A stretch of DNA of 64,000 bases from Candidatus Hebobacterum abditum (lineage in GTDB: Bacteria > Armatimonadota > Hebobacteria > Hebobacterales > Hebobacteraceae): positions 124,001 to 188,000 of the forward strand of contig JALGXW010000012.1 of NCBI GenBank assembly GCA_029821875.1, in the 5' to 3' direction. The first letter of the stretch is position 1. Every line of letters starts with the position of its first letter. Positions 25,726-31,616 of the stretch are shown piece by piece. A program made the position numbers and the translations under genes. Under the pieces are notes generated by a model, which worked only from the letters and a program-made list of their open reading frames with translations, had not been told where the DNA came from and did no database searches.

Positions 25726-26844
25726 CTACCAGGCATGATGTCCGGCCGTTCCCAGCTTGAAGATTCGCTCCACGCCTCCGACGGCCTTCCCCTGTTCGTC
25801 AAGGATCTCGATCCAGATGCGGTGCTTGCCAGCCTGGAGGCGAGATAGGTCGAAACCCAGCTCGGCCGGGAACTCCTCCGGGGAGGCGGTTGCCGCCACT
25901 GCATCGTCTAGGCGGACCGACACCGACCAGCCGGCCGGCAGAGGCATGTCCGCCCCAACGATCACCGACTGCTCGCCGTCCCACGCGCGGGGCAGCCACA
26001 CCGATACGCGCATATCACCCGCGGCGAAGTGCAGAACCGGGCGGGGCTGATGGCCGTTCCGCCAGTCGAGTCCTCTCGGCGGCCGCGGCGGCTCGGCGGA
26101 CGTCGGGGCATCTTTGACGTAGACGCAGATTATGTTGGTGAGGGGCCGCCTGGGGTAGACGACCATCTTCCCACGAAACCACATTGCGGCTGAGCCGCCG
26201 CCATCCAGGTTGAAGGCATAGAGGGCTCCCATCTCGCGCATTGCAGCGGCCAGCCTTCCGAGCGATGTGCCGCGCGCAGTTGTGACCAAGAGAAGGTGGT
26301 TCTCGCGGGTCACACCAATCGCTGTCCGAGGGGCGGCCCGCGCGAAGAGCGCTGGATCGCCGAACCCCTCACCACCGGGAAGCGGCTTGGCAAAACCCTC
26401 CCACACGAGAAGCGGCCCTCCGGCGATGGCCGCGCGGTGCTCGGACCAGTCCACATGCTGGCTCTTCGGGAGGCGCACGAAGTCTACGCCATCGTCTGCG
26501 AAGGCGGCCGCGGTTCCCATCCCGCCGAAGTGGGCCAGCTTGCCATCAATGACGATATCCGCGACGGGCTTGAGCGTGCGCTTATCGAAGAAAGTCCCGT
26601 TGACCGCCGCCGCGGGACGGAGGCGGCGGATGAACTGGGACAACTCCTCGCCATGGCCGACGCCTTCGGCGGGAATTGCGGGGGAGATAACGAGGCGACG
26701 GTCGTTGAGGTCAACGTCGACAACATGGAGGCTGACCCCACCCACGGTCCGCCGCTCATACGACAGGGGACCACCCGCGCCGACACGCGCTGCGCCAGAG
26801 CCGACCAGCACAAGCACGCCTGCTGTCAGGAGCCAGAGCCTCAG
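25726..26844 (-). CDS. Secreted phosphodiester glycosidase (NAGPA-domain) protein
   Basis: Exported protein with a phosphodiester glycosidase domain, related to the human uncovering enzyme and bacterial exopolysaccharide-associated proteins. Domain features include VVDVDLNDRRLVISPAIP, AAAVNGTFFDKRTLKPVADIVIDG, PRTAIGV and the signature YAFNLDGGGSAAMWFRGK. A C-terminal beta-sandwich-like region follows (about 240-360). A full signal peptide (LRLRLWLLTAGVLVLVGSGAARVGAGG, two segments) is only obtained if translation starts at CTG 26844, which overlaps the upstream stop as CTGA; the first conventional start, GTG 26817, would leave only a short uncharged N-terminus. The physiological substrate is unknown. 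Confidence 0.8.
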   Translation of the reverse strand: MRLWLLTAGVLVLVGSGAARVGAGGPLSYERRTVGGVSLHVVDVDLNDRRLVISPAIPAEGVGHGEELSQFIRRLRPAAAVNGTFFDKRTLKPVADIVIDGKLAHFGGMGTAAAFADDGVDFVRLPKSQHVDWSEHRAAIAGGPLLVWEGFAKPLPGGEGFGDPALFARAAPRTAIGVTRENHLLLVTTARGTSLGRLAAAMREMGALYAFNLDGGGSAAMWFRGKMVVYPRRPLTNIICVYVKDAPTSAEPPRPPRGLDWRNGHQPRPVLHFAAGDMRVSVWLPRAWDGEQSVIVGADMPLPAGWSVSVRLDDAVAATASPEEFPAELGFDLSRLQAGKHRIWIEILDEQGKAVGGVERIFKLGTAGHHAW

Positions 26845-27131
26845 TCTAGGATGTCCTCTCTCTTCCAGCCAAACGGCTGTGCGAAGCAGTCACCGGCCAT
26901 CTGACCCACCGGGACGGCCTCGTCGCGCTCCATACACCAGACGTGGTCCTGGGATACCACCTGTCCGGCCGGCGCAGAGATCGCTGCACGGGCACAGGTG
27001 CCGCATGTGGGGATGTACTCGAGGTCGCCCGTCGTGTTCGGCTCCCCCTGCAGGTCTCCGCCGCACTGGTAGCAGTAGTCGCGCTTCACGGAGTTCGTGT
27101 TCCCGCAGTGGGGGCAGTCCATCATCTCCAT
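26841..27131 (-). CDS. Small zinc-ribbon protein
   Basis: A 96-residue soluble protein. The N-terminus has CPHCGNTNSVKRDYCYQCGG, a zinc ribbon of the CxxC...CxxC kind; a second cysteine set lies at CGTC and in VWCMERDE..GDC. The ATG at 27131 has GGAGGAG 7 nt upstream, better than the long frame to 27212. Function not recognised; similar short double-ribbon proteins are often annotated only as hypothetical. It is the first gene of the run leading to the glycosidase and miaB, and its stop overlaps the presumed CTG start of the next gene. Confidence 0.7.
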   Translation of the reverse strand: MEMMDCPHCGNTNSVKRDYCYQCGGDLQGEPNTTGDLEYIPTCGTCARAAISAPAGQVVSQDHVWCMERDEAVPVGQMAGDCFAQPFGWKREDILD

Positions 27132-27200
27132 GCCAACGCTCCTCCCCTTCGGCAGAGCGCGTCGGCACACCCATGCCGAGAGCGAGGTCCCGCTCGCCCG

Positions 27201-27211
27201 ATTATACCACA
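27201..27211 (-). promoter_or_regulatory. Extended -10 promoter of the zinc-ribbon gene
   Basis: Minus strand TGTGGTATAAT: TATAAT at 27206-27201 preceded by TGG. No good -35 box at 16-18 nt. An imperfect hairpin with stem CGCG-CACTT/AAGTG-CGCG (27224-27246, one bulge) lies just upstream, between the two divergent promoters. Confidence 0.6.
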
Positions 27212-27306
27212 TGGCCTGTCATTCGCGCCACTTGGCGAAGTGCGCGGGACGTCGCATGCTGGGCGGCTGTGGGCGGAGAGATGTGCGCAATGAGGGGGGC
27301 AGTTGA

Positions 27307-27317
27307 TGTGGTATAGA
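27307..27317 (+). promoter_or_regulatory. Extended -10 promoter of the secreted protein gene
   Basis: ATGTGGTATAGA on the plus strand: TATAGA (27312-27317) preceded by TGG. It shares the TGTGGTATA core with the divergent promoter about 100 bp away. No clear -35. Confidence 0.45.
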
Positions 27318-27365
27318 CCAATGACGACACCGGGTGCGGATGGCGCGCCCTGGGGAGGTCATCCT

Positions 27366-28310
27366 ATGTCACGAGTCGCTGGCTTCATCGCTCTGGCCGG
27401 TCTGGCCCTGACTGTCGCAGGCGATAGTGCTACGGCCCAGGAAGGCGTCGATCTCGCCTTCAAGTTCACGCCCGGCGAGGTGATGGACTATGATATCTCG
27501 ATGTCGGGCTCTGGAGGGCTGAGAGCGCCAGACGGCGAGTCCGCGAGAATGGGACTGCAGGGGAATCTCCGTCTCAAGGTGACAGTGGCACAGGTCCTGC
27601 CTGACGGGAACGCGCGGCTCCAGCTTCTCATCCCGGACGCCGACATGAGCGTCACCATAGGCCCCCAGAGCGCCAGGCTTGCCTACTCAAATGGGCGGGT
27701 CAGGTGGTATGCCGACGGCAGGGAGCAAGCGCCGCCGGACGCGGACATCACCCAGGTTCCCCTTCTTGGCGTCCCCCTCGAGTTGGTCGCGTCTCCCAAG
27801 GGACAGATACTGGACGTTGTGCTGCCCGAGATCGCGGGTCTGGCAGGGGTGACGCAGATGGCGCCCGGCTTGAGTACGCCACAGCTCGAGCACCTCGGAG
27901 ACCCGATGTTCCCCGACCACCCTGTGGTCGTCGGCGAGACGTGGCGGCGTTCGGTGCAGGTGAGCCCGTTCGGACCGACGATGCCGATGACCGTCACGAG
28001 CTCCCGCACGCTCGATTCCTACACGGATCAAGGGGGAATCGGGCTGGCCAAGATCAGCGGCCACACGGAGGCGCGTCTCCGTGTGAGTCGCATGAGTGTC
28101 GGCCCGCCAGATTCGGGGGCCACGCTTTCCGTGCCGGAGATGAGGGAGACGATTACGTCAACAGAGTTCTTCAACCCGACCGCGGGGCAGCTCGTTCGGG
28201 CCCACTACGAGGTCGCCGTCGTAACGAGCATCAGTTTCTCGGGGGCTGAAGAGGGACCGCAGGAGGCCGGGCTGGACGCTCGGCTCCACGCCACAATTCA
28301 GGCGCGGTAG
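27366..28310 (+). CDS. Secreted protein of unknown function
   Basis: A 314-residue protein with a clear Sec signal peptide (MSRVAGFIALAGLALTVAG, cleavage near residue 24 at ATA-Q). The mature part is strand-rich: FKFTPGEVMDYDISMSGSG, then LQGNLRLKVTVAQVLPDGNARLQLLI, and a C-terminal region ending in ISFSGAEEG. That suggests a beta-sandwich or lipocalin-like envelope protein. ATG 27366 has GGGGAGG 7 nt upstream; starts further up lack this and would mask the signal peptide. It stands alone, divergent from the zinc-ribbon gene and convergent with cmk. No family recognised with confidence. Confidence 0.75.
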   Translation: MSRVAGFIALAGLALTVAGDSATAQEGVDLAFKFTPGEVMDYDISMSGSGGLRAPDGESARMGLQGNLRLKVTVAQVLPDGNARLQLLIPDADMSVTIGPQSARLAYSNGRVRWYADGREQAPPDADITQVPLLGVPLELVASPKGQILDVVLPEIAGLAGVTQMAPGLSTPQLEHLGDPMFPDHPVVVGETWRRSVQVSPFGPTMPMTVTSSRTLDSYTDQGGIGLAKISGHTEARLRVSRMSVGPPDSGATLSVPEMRETITSTEFFNPTAGQLVRAHYEVAVVTSISFSGAEEGPQEAGLDARLHATIQAR

Positions 28311-28339
28311 CGTCGGCGTTCGGTACTGCCGCCAGGCGC

Positions 28340-29125
28340 CTAGGCCGGGTCTGTCGGGCAGTGCTCACGCACGACGTCGAGCACCTTGGCTGACACCTCT
28401 TCGACGGTCAATCCGCCTGTGTCCAGGTGAACCGCGCCCGGCGCGGCCCGAAGGGGGGAATCGGATCGTGTTGAGTCGCGCTTGTCCCGCGCCTCGATAT
28501 CAGCCCTGACCGTCTCCAGATCGGCGGCGACGCCTCTGGCTCGGAGCTCGTGCCATCGGCGCTCTGCTCGCTCCTCGGCCGGCGCCGTCAGGAAGATCTT
28601 CACCTCGGCGTCTGGCAGCACGACCGTCTGGATGTCGCGCCCCTCCATCACGACCCCACCCTCCCTGGCCATCTCCTTCTGTAGTGCCACCATGCGGCGC
28701 CGAACCCGCGGGATGGCTGATAGCTTCGAGGCAAGCCTCCCGATCTCCGGCGAGCGAATCTCGGCGGTAACATCCTGGCCATCCACGAGCACCTGGTTTA
28801 TCCCATCGGGCCGCGGTCGTAGCTGAATGTTCAACTCCCCAAGCAGGTCTTCCAATCGGCTGCGGTCGTCTGCGGGAATGTCGTGACGGCGTGCCGCCCA
28901 AGCCAGCCCGCGGTAGGTCGCACCCGAGTCAACATAGGTGAAGCCGAGCTCGCGTGCCACCAGCCTGGCGATGGTGCTCTTCCCTGCTGCCACGGGACCG
29001 TCGATAGCCACGCACGGCCGCTGCCGCCGTTTCGCCGGTCGGAGGGTCTCCTCGGGCTCGACGACGCTCTCACCCGGCTCAGCAACACTCTCGGCCGGGT
29101 CCACGACGCTCTCGGCTGACTCCAC
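28340..29125 (-). CDS. cmk: Cytidylate kinase (C-terminal half of a HisI-linker-Cmk frame)
   Basis: Phosphorylates CMP and dCMP. The catalytic part (28340-29011, 223 residues) is a complete Cmk: CVAIDGPVAAGKSTIARLVAREL with the P-loop, YVDSGATYRGLAWAA, the VTAEIRSPEI segment, RDIQTVVLPDAEVKIFLTA, the lid region and the RDKRDSTRSDSPL segment. Upstream the frame is an Ala/Glu/Pro-rich linker that is open into hisI. GTG 29125, with GGAG 6 nt upstream, is the nearest plausible internal start, but it lies in repeated sequence, so the start is uncertain. With one copy of the 80-bp repeat (29152-29311) this frame joins HisI. Last gene of the fum-his operon. Confidence 0.88.
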   Translation of the reverse strand: MESAESVVDPAESVAEPGESVVEPEETLRPAKRRQRPCVAIDGPVAAGKSTIARLVARELGFTYVDSGATYRGLAWAARRHDIPADDRSRLEDLLGELNIQLRPRPDGINQVLVDGQDVTAEIRSPEIGRLASKLSAIPRVRRRMVALQKEMAREGGVVMEGRDIQTVVLPDAEVKIFLTAPAEERAERRWHELRARGVAADLETVRADIEARDKRDSTRSDSPLRAAPGAVHLDTGGLTVEEVSAKVLDVVREHCPTDPA

Positions 29126-29658
29126 CGCGCGCTCCGCTGGCTCCGCCGCGCGCTCGGGCGACTCCACCGCGCGCTCCGCTGGCTCCGCCGCGCGCTCGGG
29201 CGACTCCACCGCGCGCTCGGCCGGTTCGAATGCTCGGGCGACTCCACCGCGCGCTCCGCTGGCTCCGCCGCGCGCTCGGGCGACTCCACCGCGCGCTCGG
29301 CCGGTTCGAATACGCGCTCGCCCACGACCTCGAGGCGGTCGCCGACCGGCTTCCGGTAGAAGCACGAGCGATAACCCTCGTGGCAAGCGGCGCCGATCTG
29401 CTCGATCTTCATCACGAGCGCGTCGCCATCGCAATCCACAAGGATCTCTTTGACGAGTTGGACGTTGCCTGACGTCTCGCCTTTCATCATCACGCGACCG
29501 TGGGAACGCCGGAAGAGATAGGCCTGGCCCGTCTCGAGCGTCTTCTGGAGCGCCTCGCGATTCATATAGCCAAGGACCAGCACCTCGCTGGTTTCGTGGT
29601 CCTGGAAAACGACGGCAACGAGCCCGTTGTCGTCCCATTTGAGAGCGTCGAAGTCCAC
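28831..29658 (-). CDS. hisI: Phosphoribosyl-AMP cyclohydrolase with repeat linker; frame shifted into cmk
   Basis: Third step of histidine synthesis: opens the purine ring of PR-AMP. Residues 1-117 are a full HisI: ALKWDDNGLVAVVFQDHETSEVLVLGYMN (two stretches), GQAYLFRRSHGRVMMKGETSGN, the metal-binding LVDCDGDALVMK and the zinc-site GAACHEGYRSCFYR. GTG 29658 follows AGGAGG. After residue 117 comes the FEPAERAVESPE linker. Because of the 80-bp duplication the frame then leaves the linker (…ESPEHSNRP) and runs out of register over cmk to a stop at 28831; that tail is very unlikely to be functional. Meaningful sequence is about 29232-29658. hisE is not seen. Confidence 0.82.
   Translation of the reverse strand: MDFDALKWDDNGLVAVVFQDHETSEVLVLGYMNREALQKTLETGQAYLFRRSHGRVMMKGETSGNVQLVKEILVDCDGDALVMKIEQIGAACHEGYRSCFYRKPVGDRLEVVGERVFEPAERAVESPERAAEPAERAVESPEHSNRPSARWSRPSARRSQRSARWSRPSARRSQRSARWSQPRASWTRPRVLLSRVRASSSPRRPSDRRNGGSGRAWLSTVPWQQGRAPSPGWWHASSASPMLTRVRPTAGWLGRHAVTTFPQTTAADWKTCLGS
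29152..29311. repeat. Exact 80-bp tandem duplication in the hisI-cmk linker
   Basis: 29152-29231 and 29232-29311 are identical. Within it a 42-bp motif encoding a 14-residue EPAERAVESPERAA unit also recurs. Since 80 is not a multiple of 3, the extra copy shifts the reading frame. Removing one copy gives a continuous frame of 413 codons from GTG 29658 to the cmk stop at 28340. Confidence 0.95.
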
Positions 29659-29666
29659 TGCCCCTC

Positions 29667-31616
29667 CTAATTCACTGTTACCATGATTCCGACACCCGTC
29701 AACCATCCGACGATGATCCACAGGACGGCCCCGAGGATGTCGCCCAGGATGATGCCCATGAACAGCGGGCGGAACTGAACGTATCCGCGGAGCCCAGTAT
29801 ACCGGATGACCAGCAGCTTGAACAACCATCCGAGGAAGAGCGAGAACCAGAGGTTGAGGCTGGCCCAGGCCGTGCCCATCACGAACCCGAGGGGGTGGAT
29901 CGGCCACCACACGAAGTTCAGACGCAGCCATGAGAGGGCGGCGACGATGGCCGCACCGGAGAGCATCGAGACGTACTGGGTCGTCGAGGGCCTATCGTGC
30001 GTCTGCAGGCGCGTCGCAAGGAGCCTGAAAAACCGCGTGGGATGGCTCTCCAGCTCTACGACGTTTCCCGCCTGAAAGGCGCCGGCCTTGTAGAAGGTCA
30101 TCAGGTATGCGGGGACGCTGACAAGAACACAGACAGCAAGTGCCACCACCATCACGGGCACGATCCGCCGCGTACGTATGCCTTCGAGCTCCGCGAACCG
30201 GAAGCCGTTGAGGATGGACGGCATGAGGAACTCGCGCAGGTCCCACGTGAGCGCGCAGTCGACGAACGTGAGGACCGTGAGGTTGTTCGGACCGACGACG
30301 GTCGTTCCGCCGAAGAGGAGCAGATAGTCGACCGGGTTGAAGATGAGGTGGATCATGAGCATCCCTGCCTCGGCGATGATGCGCGTGAGCACGAGGCAGA
30401 TGGCGATGAAGAAGACGAGATGGGCGAAGGCGAAGGGGAGAGTCATCCCCGCAGCGACGAGCCAGTACAGGGCGACGCCGAATCCGCCGAGGAAGCCGAA
30501 TACGGCCCACCGATAGCTGATCGGCTCGCCTTTGTCCACCTCCGCCAGCTCTGGCGATCGAGTGAAGGCCCGCCTCACCGCTTCTGCGAGCGTGCCCCGA
30601 AGGAGCCAGAAGAGGACGAAGGCGATGGCGAGCAGACCTCCCATTTGCTGTGCGTGTGTGATCTCGCTGATGGTACCCCACCAGGCGCTCGTGCCCTCGT
30701 AGCCCAGCGCACTTAGGACGATGGCCTCAAGCTTGATGAAGAGGACGGACGCCCAGAAGCCGGCGGCGACCTCCAACGATAGGAGATAGCCAAAGCCGAC
30801 GGCCGAGAAGAAGAGGCCGAGGTACATGGGGACGACGGCGTTCCAGGGCCTGTCGGTGATGTAGGGATCGAGATTCCAGAAGGTCGGAATCTCGGGGAGG
30901 GCCGGGAACTGCTGGTGCATGCCGTTGACGAGGTGAATGAGGAAGACAGCGCCGGCGCCGATCCAGACGAGGCGCCCGGTGAAGAAGGGCGCAGACGGGC
31001 CGCGGTCGTCGCCGCGAAGGACCTCCACGGGGAACTGCACGAGAGGGAAGGCAAGACGCTCCCGATCGGCCCACTGCTTCCGCACCAAGGCGGCCATGCA
31101 GATCATTATGACCCACAGCGCGCCGAAGAAGATGGACCAGTGCGACATCATGGTCACCCATGGCCGCCAGGGAAGCGATTCCCCTGCTGGCATCCCCTCC
31201 CAGAACCAGGTGTGTGCCGCAGGATCGCTCACGGCCAGCCACACTGGTATCCGGTCCCAGAAGAGCAGCTCCCACTGGTTTCCTGCGCTGGCGTAGTAGT
31301 AGGGCACGGTACCGCAAGGAATCATGTACCGCAGCAGCCCCGACGAAGGCAATCCAGAGGTCACCATGATGATGACGTAGACGACGGCGGTCTCGCCGGG
31401 ACTGAGGAATGCTGACCCGCGGGTCCGGTAGAGCAGGAAGTTCAGCAGGGAAAGCAGGAGCAGAACTGCGACCGCGCCGACCGGGAAGTGATTGCCGGCG
31501 ATGTAGGTGTTGCCGACAACGTAGTCGTTGTAGGGTGTGATGGCGCACAGCGCCGAGGCCAGCACGAGGCCGATGAGTACGCTGCGCCAGGTTATACTTC
31601 CCCCGCCCTTCTTCAC
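29667..31616 (-). CDS. Large polytopic membrane protein (OPT-like, DUF6784/6785-like)
   Basis: A 649-residue protein with about 14 hydrophobic segments spread over its whole length, such as VLIGLVLASALCAI, VGAVAVLLLLSLLNFLLY, ETAVVYVIIMVTSGLPSSGLLRYM and IIAEAGMLMIHLIFNPVDYLLLFGG. The pattern and motifs resemble the oligopeptide-transporter-like DUF6784/DUF6785 proteins; I am not certain of the family. It sits inside the his operon, 15 nt after hisF and 8 nt before hisI. That is an odd place for a transporter and hints at a solute linked to histidine or nucleotide metabolism, or at chance. No signal peptide beyond the first membrane helix. Confidence 0.75.
   Translation of the reverse strand: MKKGGGSITWRSVLIGLVLASALCAITPYNDYVVGNTYIAGNHFPVGAVAVLLLLSLLNFLLYRTRGSAFLSPGETAVVYVIIMVTSGLPSSGLLRYMIPCGTVPYYYASAGNQWELLFWDRIPVWLAVSDPAAHTWFWEGMPAGESLPWRPWVTMMSHWSIFFGALWVIMICMAALVRKQWADRERLAFPLVQFPVEVLRGDDRGPSAPFFTGRLVWIGAGAVFLIHLVNGMHQQFPALPEIPTFWNLDPYITDRPWNAVVPMYLGLFFSAVGFGYLLSLEVAAGFWASVLFIKLEAIVLSALGYEGTSAWWGTISEITHAQQMGGLLAIAFVLFWLLRGTLAEAVRRAFTRSPELAEVDKGEPISYRWAVFGFLGGFGVALYWLVAAGMTLPFAFAHLVFFIAICLVLTRIIAEAGMLMIHLIFNPVDYLLLFGGTTVVGPNNLTVLTFVDCALTWDLREFLMPSILNGFRFAELEGIRTRRIVPVMVVALAVCVLVSVPAYLMTFYKAGAFQAGNVVELESHPTRFFRLLATRLQTHDRPSTTQYVSMLSGAAIVAALSWLRLNFVWWPIHPLGFVMGTAWASLNLWFSLFLGWLFKLLVIRYTGLRGYVQFRPLFMGIILGDILGAVLWIIVGWLTGVGIMVTVN

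Follow-up and report, generated by a model that had tools for sequence, protein, structure and literature searches.

We propose, with moderate confidence, that the window (the whole stretch of 64,000 nucleotides analysed here) carries a lineage-specific fusion of HisI to Cmk through a repeat-derived linker, and that the repeat was misassembled; the fusion comes from one genome. Both genes lie on the minus strand, with the hisI GTG start at 29658 and the end of cmk at 28340, and the sequence that joins them is an array of heptads which contains an exact 80-bp tandem duplication. The features on which this proposal rests are collected in Table 1.

Table 1. Features of the hisI-cmk locus, in window coordinates.
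Feature	Position	Strand	Evidence
hisI (phosphoribosyl-AMP cyclohydrolase)	29302..29658	-	Pfam, alignment to relatives, start context
Heptad array, Ala/Glu/Pro-rich linker, from HisI's GERVFEP towards Cmk (extra 80 bp included)	29054..29322	-	TRF, heptad listing, codon-position counts, match to HisI's heptad
Exact 80-bp tandem, copy 1	29152..29231	.	TRF; zero microhomology
Exact 80-bp tandem, copy 2	29232..29311	.	TRF; zero microhomology; one- and two-copy translations
Linker end on the Cmk side, EETLRPAKRRQ	29021..29053	-	Sequence
cmk (cytidylate kinase) domain	28340..29020	-	PF02224; sole match in genome

The window genome (4.31 Mb in 103 contigs, 95% complete) is probably a metagenome assembly from the Armatimonadota, the phylum of its nearest named relatives, one of which carries the label Candidatus Hebobacteria. 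The minus-strand gene order is hisH, hisA, hisF, a DUF6785/DUF6784 membrane protein, hisI and cmk, where hisH and hisA are what we take the respective reading frames to be. The membrane protein is encoded at 29667-31616, on the same strand between hisF and hisI. The hisI start is preceded by a strong ribosome-binding site, AGGAGGGG, and the encoded domain matches PF01502 (PRA-CH) at 1.5e-29, with 102.1 bits against a curated cut-off of 27. HisI aligns to four relatives at 74-81% and has the conserved residues common to them; the 3' end of the gene reads ...GERVFEP, with no stop. The Cmk domain matches PF02224 (Cytidylate_kin) at 4.6e-71, with 239.3 bits against a cut-off of 26, contains the P-loop GPVAAGKST, and ends at a TAG stop at 28340-28342. 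A search of the genome returned one match for HisI and one for Cmk.

The exact 80-bp repeat described in an earlier note on this DNA is real: TRF reports 29152-29311 as 2.0 copies of period 80 with 100% match and 0 indels, lying inside the 21/42-bp array. With two copies, as assembled, the hisI and cmk frames differ, and the HisI frame continues to 28831 through out-of-frame sequence; with one copy removed, HisI, linker and Cmk form a single open frame of 413 codons. Our translations recover both the joined and the split forms that the note had described. Nothing but the junction at 29231/29232 separates the HisI frame from the Cmk frame. Chance alone would yield a common frame after an 80-bp deletion in 1 of 3 cases, and the two-copy gap of 281 nt between HisI and Cmk keeps the frame offset of 2 seen in relatives. 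In the two-copy form no stop follows HisI closely, and no start with a ribosome-binding site is available to Cmk; the Cmk-frame GTG codons within the array, at 29209, 29167, 29125 and 29104, were each checked for such a site and none was found.

In the one-copy form the heptads read, from the HisI side, GERVFEP, AERAVES, PERAAEP, AERAVES, PERAAEP, AERAVES, AESVVDP, AESVAEP and GESVVEP, followed by EETLRPA. The array has a G+C content of 76% and is built of 21-bp units, mostly in 42-bp pairs; the 14-residue repeats of the earlier note occur as such pairs, but the basic unit is the 7-residue heptad. Its first heptad is HisI's own C-terminus, where the relatives have GERVFDP or a close variant. 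Of the 332 codon-register 21-mers in hisI and cmk, the one that encodes this heptad matches the array best, and it is not equalled by any of 2305 21-mers from seven neighbouring genes. At the first, second and third codon positions, the heptads require at minimum 4/3/12 changes overall (binomial P about 0.007) and the three heptads on the Cmk side 0/2/7 (binomial P about 0.008), counts that are few and not independent. This accumulation of differences at third codon positions is consistent with translation of the array in the HisI-linker-Cmk frame. A search of the window genome with an 18-mer pattern found no related array outside the HisI-Cmk gene. A match on contig C38 was rejected as a single GC-rich stretch, the frame of which presumably reads as TPR-like repeats.

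Comparison of the locus across a class set of fourteen genomes, the window's own counted in, gives insight into the state from which the array may have arisen. Five genomes of the same family (G002, G003, G005, G006 and G007) have the same two genes in the same order and on the same strand, with HisI 72-81% and Cmk 60-70% identical. The genes adjoin but are separate, with a gap of 26-71 nt between the homologous HisI and Cmk parts and a frame offset of 2. In the four of the five in which the junction was read (loci L003-L006), hisI ends in FDPKEVYG and a stop, or similar, and the GTG or TTG start of cmk overlaps the hisI stop (GTGA/TTGA); locus L116 is similarly spaced, with an offset that is again 2. 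These pairs differ from the window in their separate frames, in the overlap of cmk start and hisI stop where this was read, and in having no heptad array, which was seen in no other genome of the class set. Judged from the sequence, the hisI stop appears to have been lost in the window lineage, with the heptad array in its place.

No second genome of the class set has a fused HisI-Cmk. The congener, G001, lacks the locus; a search of it found neither hisI nor cmk, and a contig break falls at this point. Its contigs stop at about window positions 26224 and 29766, and the 3.5-kb stretch 26224-29766, hisI and cmk included, is absent between the two contig ends, as if something in this stretch also breaks assembly in the congener.

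Separate genes in all five of the same-family genomes with the locus would agree with a reading without fusion, in which the two enzymes are made apart and translation of the array gives only an N-terminal extension to Cmk. We consider this improbable, as neither form has a stop close to the end of HisI, and in the one-copy form the heptads begin at the HisI C-terminus and keep one frame throughout. The earlier note had named relatives with separate genes and their own starts as the comparison to make; the separation is indeed found, but none of these relatives bears the array. For the fusion that it suggested, the heptad array and the codon-position pattern give support, but in one genome only.

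The extra 80-bp copy is most likely an assembly error and not a genetic switch. We looked for exact tandem duplications with a period of 25 bp or more and without microhomology in 1.31 Mb of the window genome and 118 kb of the congener. The window genome has two, that of HisI-Cmk (C64:153152, 80 bp) and C64:833, which lies on the same contig as the window, and the congener has one, C163:834. The duplication at C64:833-922 (L132:833-922) is an exact 45-bp repeat in an AcrB-like gene, in frame and present as one copy in the congener, and is probably the same kind of artefact. That at C163:834-909 (L242) is an exact 38-bp repeat which breaks a DUF6785 frame and is present as one copy in the window genome. 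Each of these two begins 833-834 bp from the end of its contig, a position suggestive of joins. No duplication of this type was found in 80 control loci from other genomes (603 kb), these loci being short and drawn from a mixture of assemblies.

The junction of the 80-bp duplication shows no microhomology, and a period of 80 does not match the register of the array, for which 84 would be needed. We favour an artefact on account of this mismatch and because similar exact duplications without microhomology occur in the same contig and in the congener assembly. Miscounted repeats, as well as overlaps duplicated where sequences are joined, have been described in metagenome assemblies (PMC7111523). 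Either error could apply at this locus; however, the duplicated overlaps of that report carry Ns, and there are none at the 29231/29232 join. The possibility that 80 is the assembler's k was rejected: contig ends mostly share 114 bp, which suggests a final k-mer near 115, and a plain graph walk should then not duplicate 80 bp.

The duplication may instead be real, a recent or strain-level frameshift, in which case HisI would carry a nonsense tail and Cmk would start from a GTG in the array. We regard this as unlikely, while giving it appreciable weight. Since 80 = 84 - 4, an in-register slip of 84 bp with loss of 4 bp could produce the observed period, and a 4-base stretch is all that distinguishes the junction GAGC-ATTCG from the native GAGCGCGTATTCG. 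GTG codons in the Cmk frame do exist in the array, but they have no ribosome-binding site; hisI and cmk are single-copy housekeeping genes, and the other exact duplications suggest an assembly cause.

Slipped-strand phase variation, in which the repeat number of the array would decide, cell by cell, between fused and separate enzymes, seems to us very improbable. The array is in frame with two genes, and the copy number of the 80-bp unit, modulo 3, changes the frame. However, the exact copy does not fit the register of the array and has no microhomology, while slippage within the array would be expected to add or remove units of 21 or 42 bp and leave the frame intact; a frame shift comes from the 80-bp copy alone. 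Moreover, the array is in no other genome of the class set, and HisI and Cmk are housekeeping enzymes, each present once in the genome. Of the options offered in the earlier note, the artefact is thus the one favoured, and phase variation gains no positive support.

For the proposed misassembled fusion, we suggest the following course of events. The ancestral state in this family would have been adjacent hisI and cmk, with a cmk start codon, GTG or TTG, that overlapped the hisI stop. In the window lineage the 21-bp stretch encoding the HisI C-terminal heptad (GERVFDP in relatives) may have been tandemly amplified, with loss of the hisI stop and the overlapping cmk start. An Ala/Glu/Pro-rich linker of heptads would thereby have placed HisI and Cmk in a single frame, and we infer that the living cell carries this one-frame gene of 413 codons. 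The frame-breaking second copy would then stem from the assembly of this array of high G+C, either through retention of both copies of an overlap where two pieces were joined or through a miscounted repeat.

Cmk is known fused to other enzymes, as in PanC-Cmk of cyanobacteria. Both PanC-Cmk and the window protein join cytidylate kinase to an unrelated enzyme; here the partner is HisI, and the connection is a repeat that would have arisen from the end of that partner itself. HisIE fusions, suggested by the reading frames of L008 and L010-L012, have an extra domain at the C-terminus of HisI, as here; we take that domain to be HisE-like, whereas in the window the extra domain is a kinase that belongs to a different pathway. 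We found no published HisI-Cmk fusion in the literature searched.

The locus, if misassembled as we propose, shows how such an error in a repeat may pass for a genetic switch. The one-frame gene, if real, would clearly illustrate how two overlapping neighbour genes become one protein. The route, if true, would be that the end of the first gene was copied in tandem until its stop was gone and a linker had been made.
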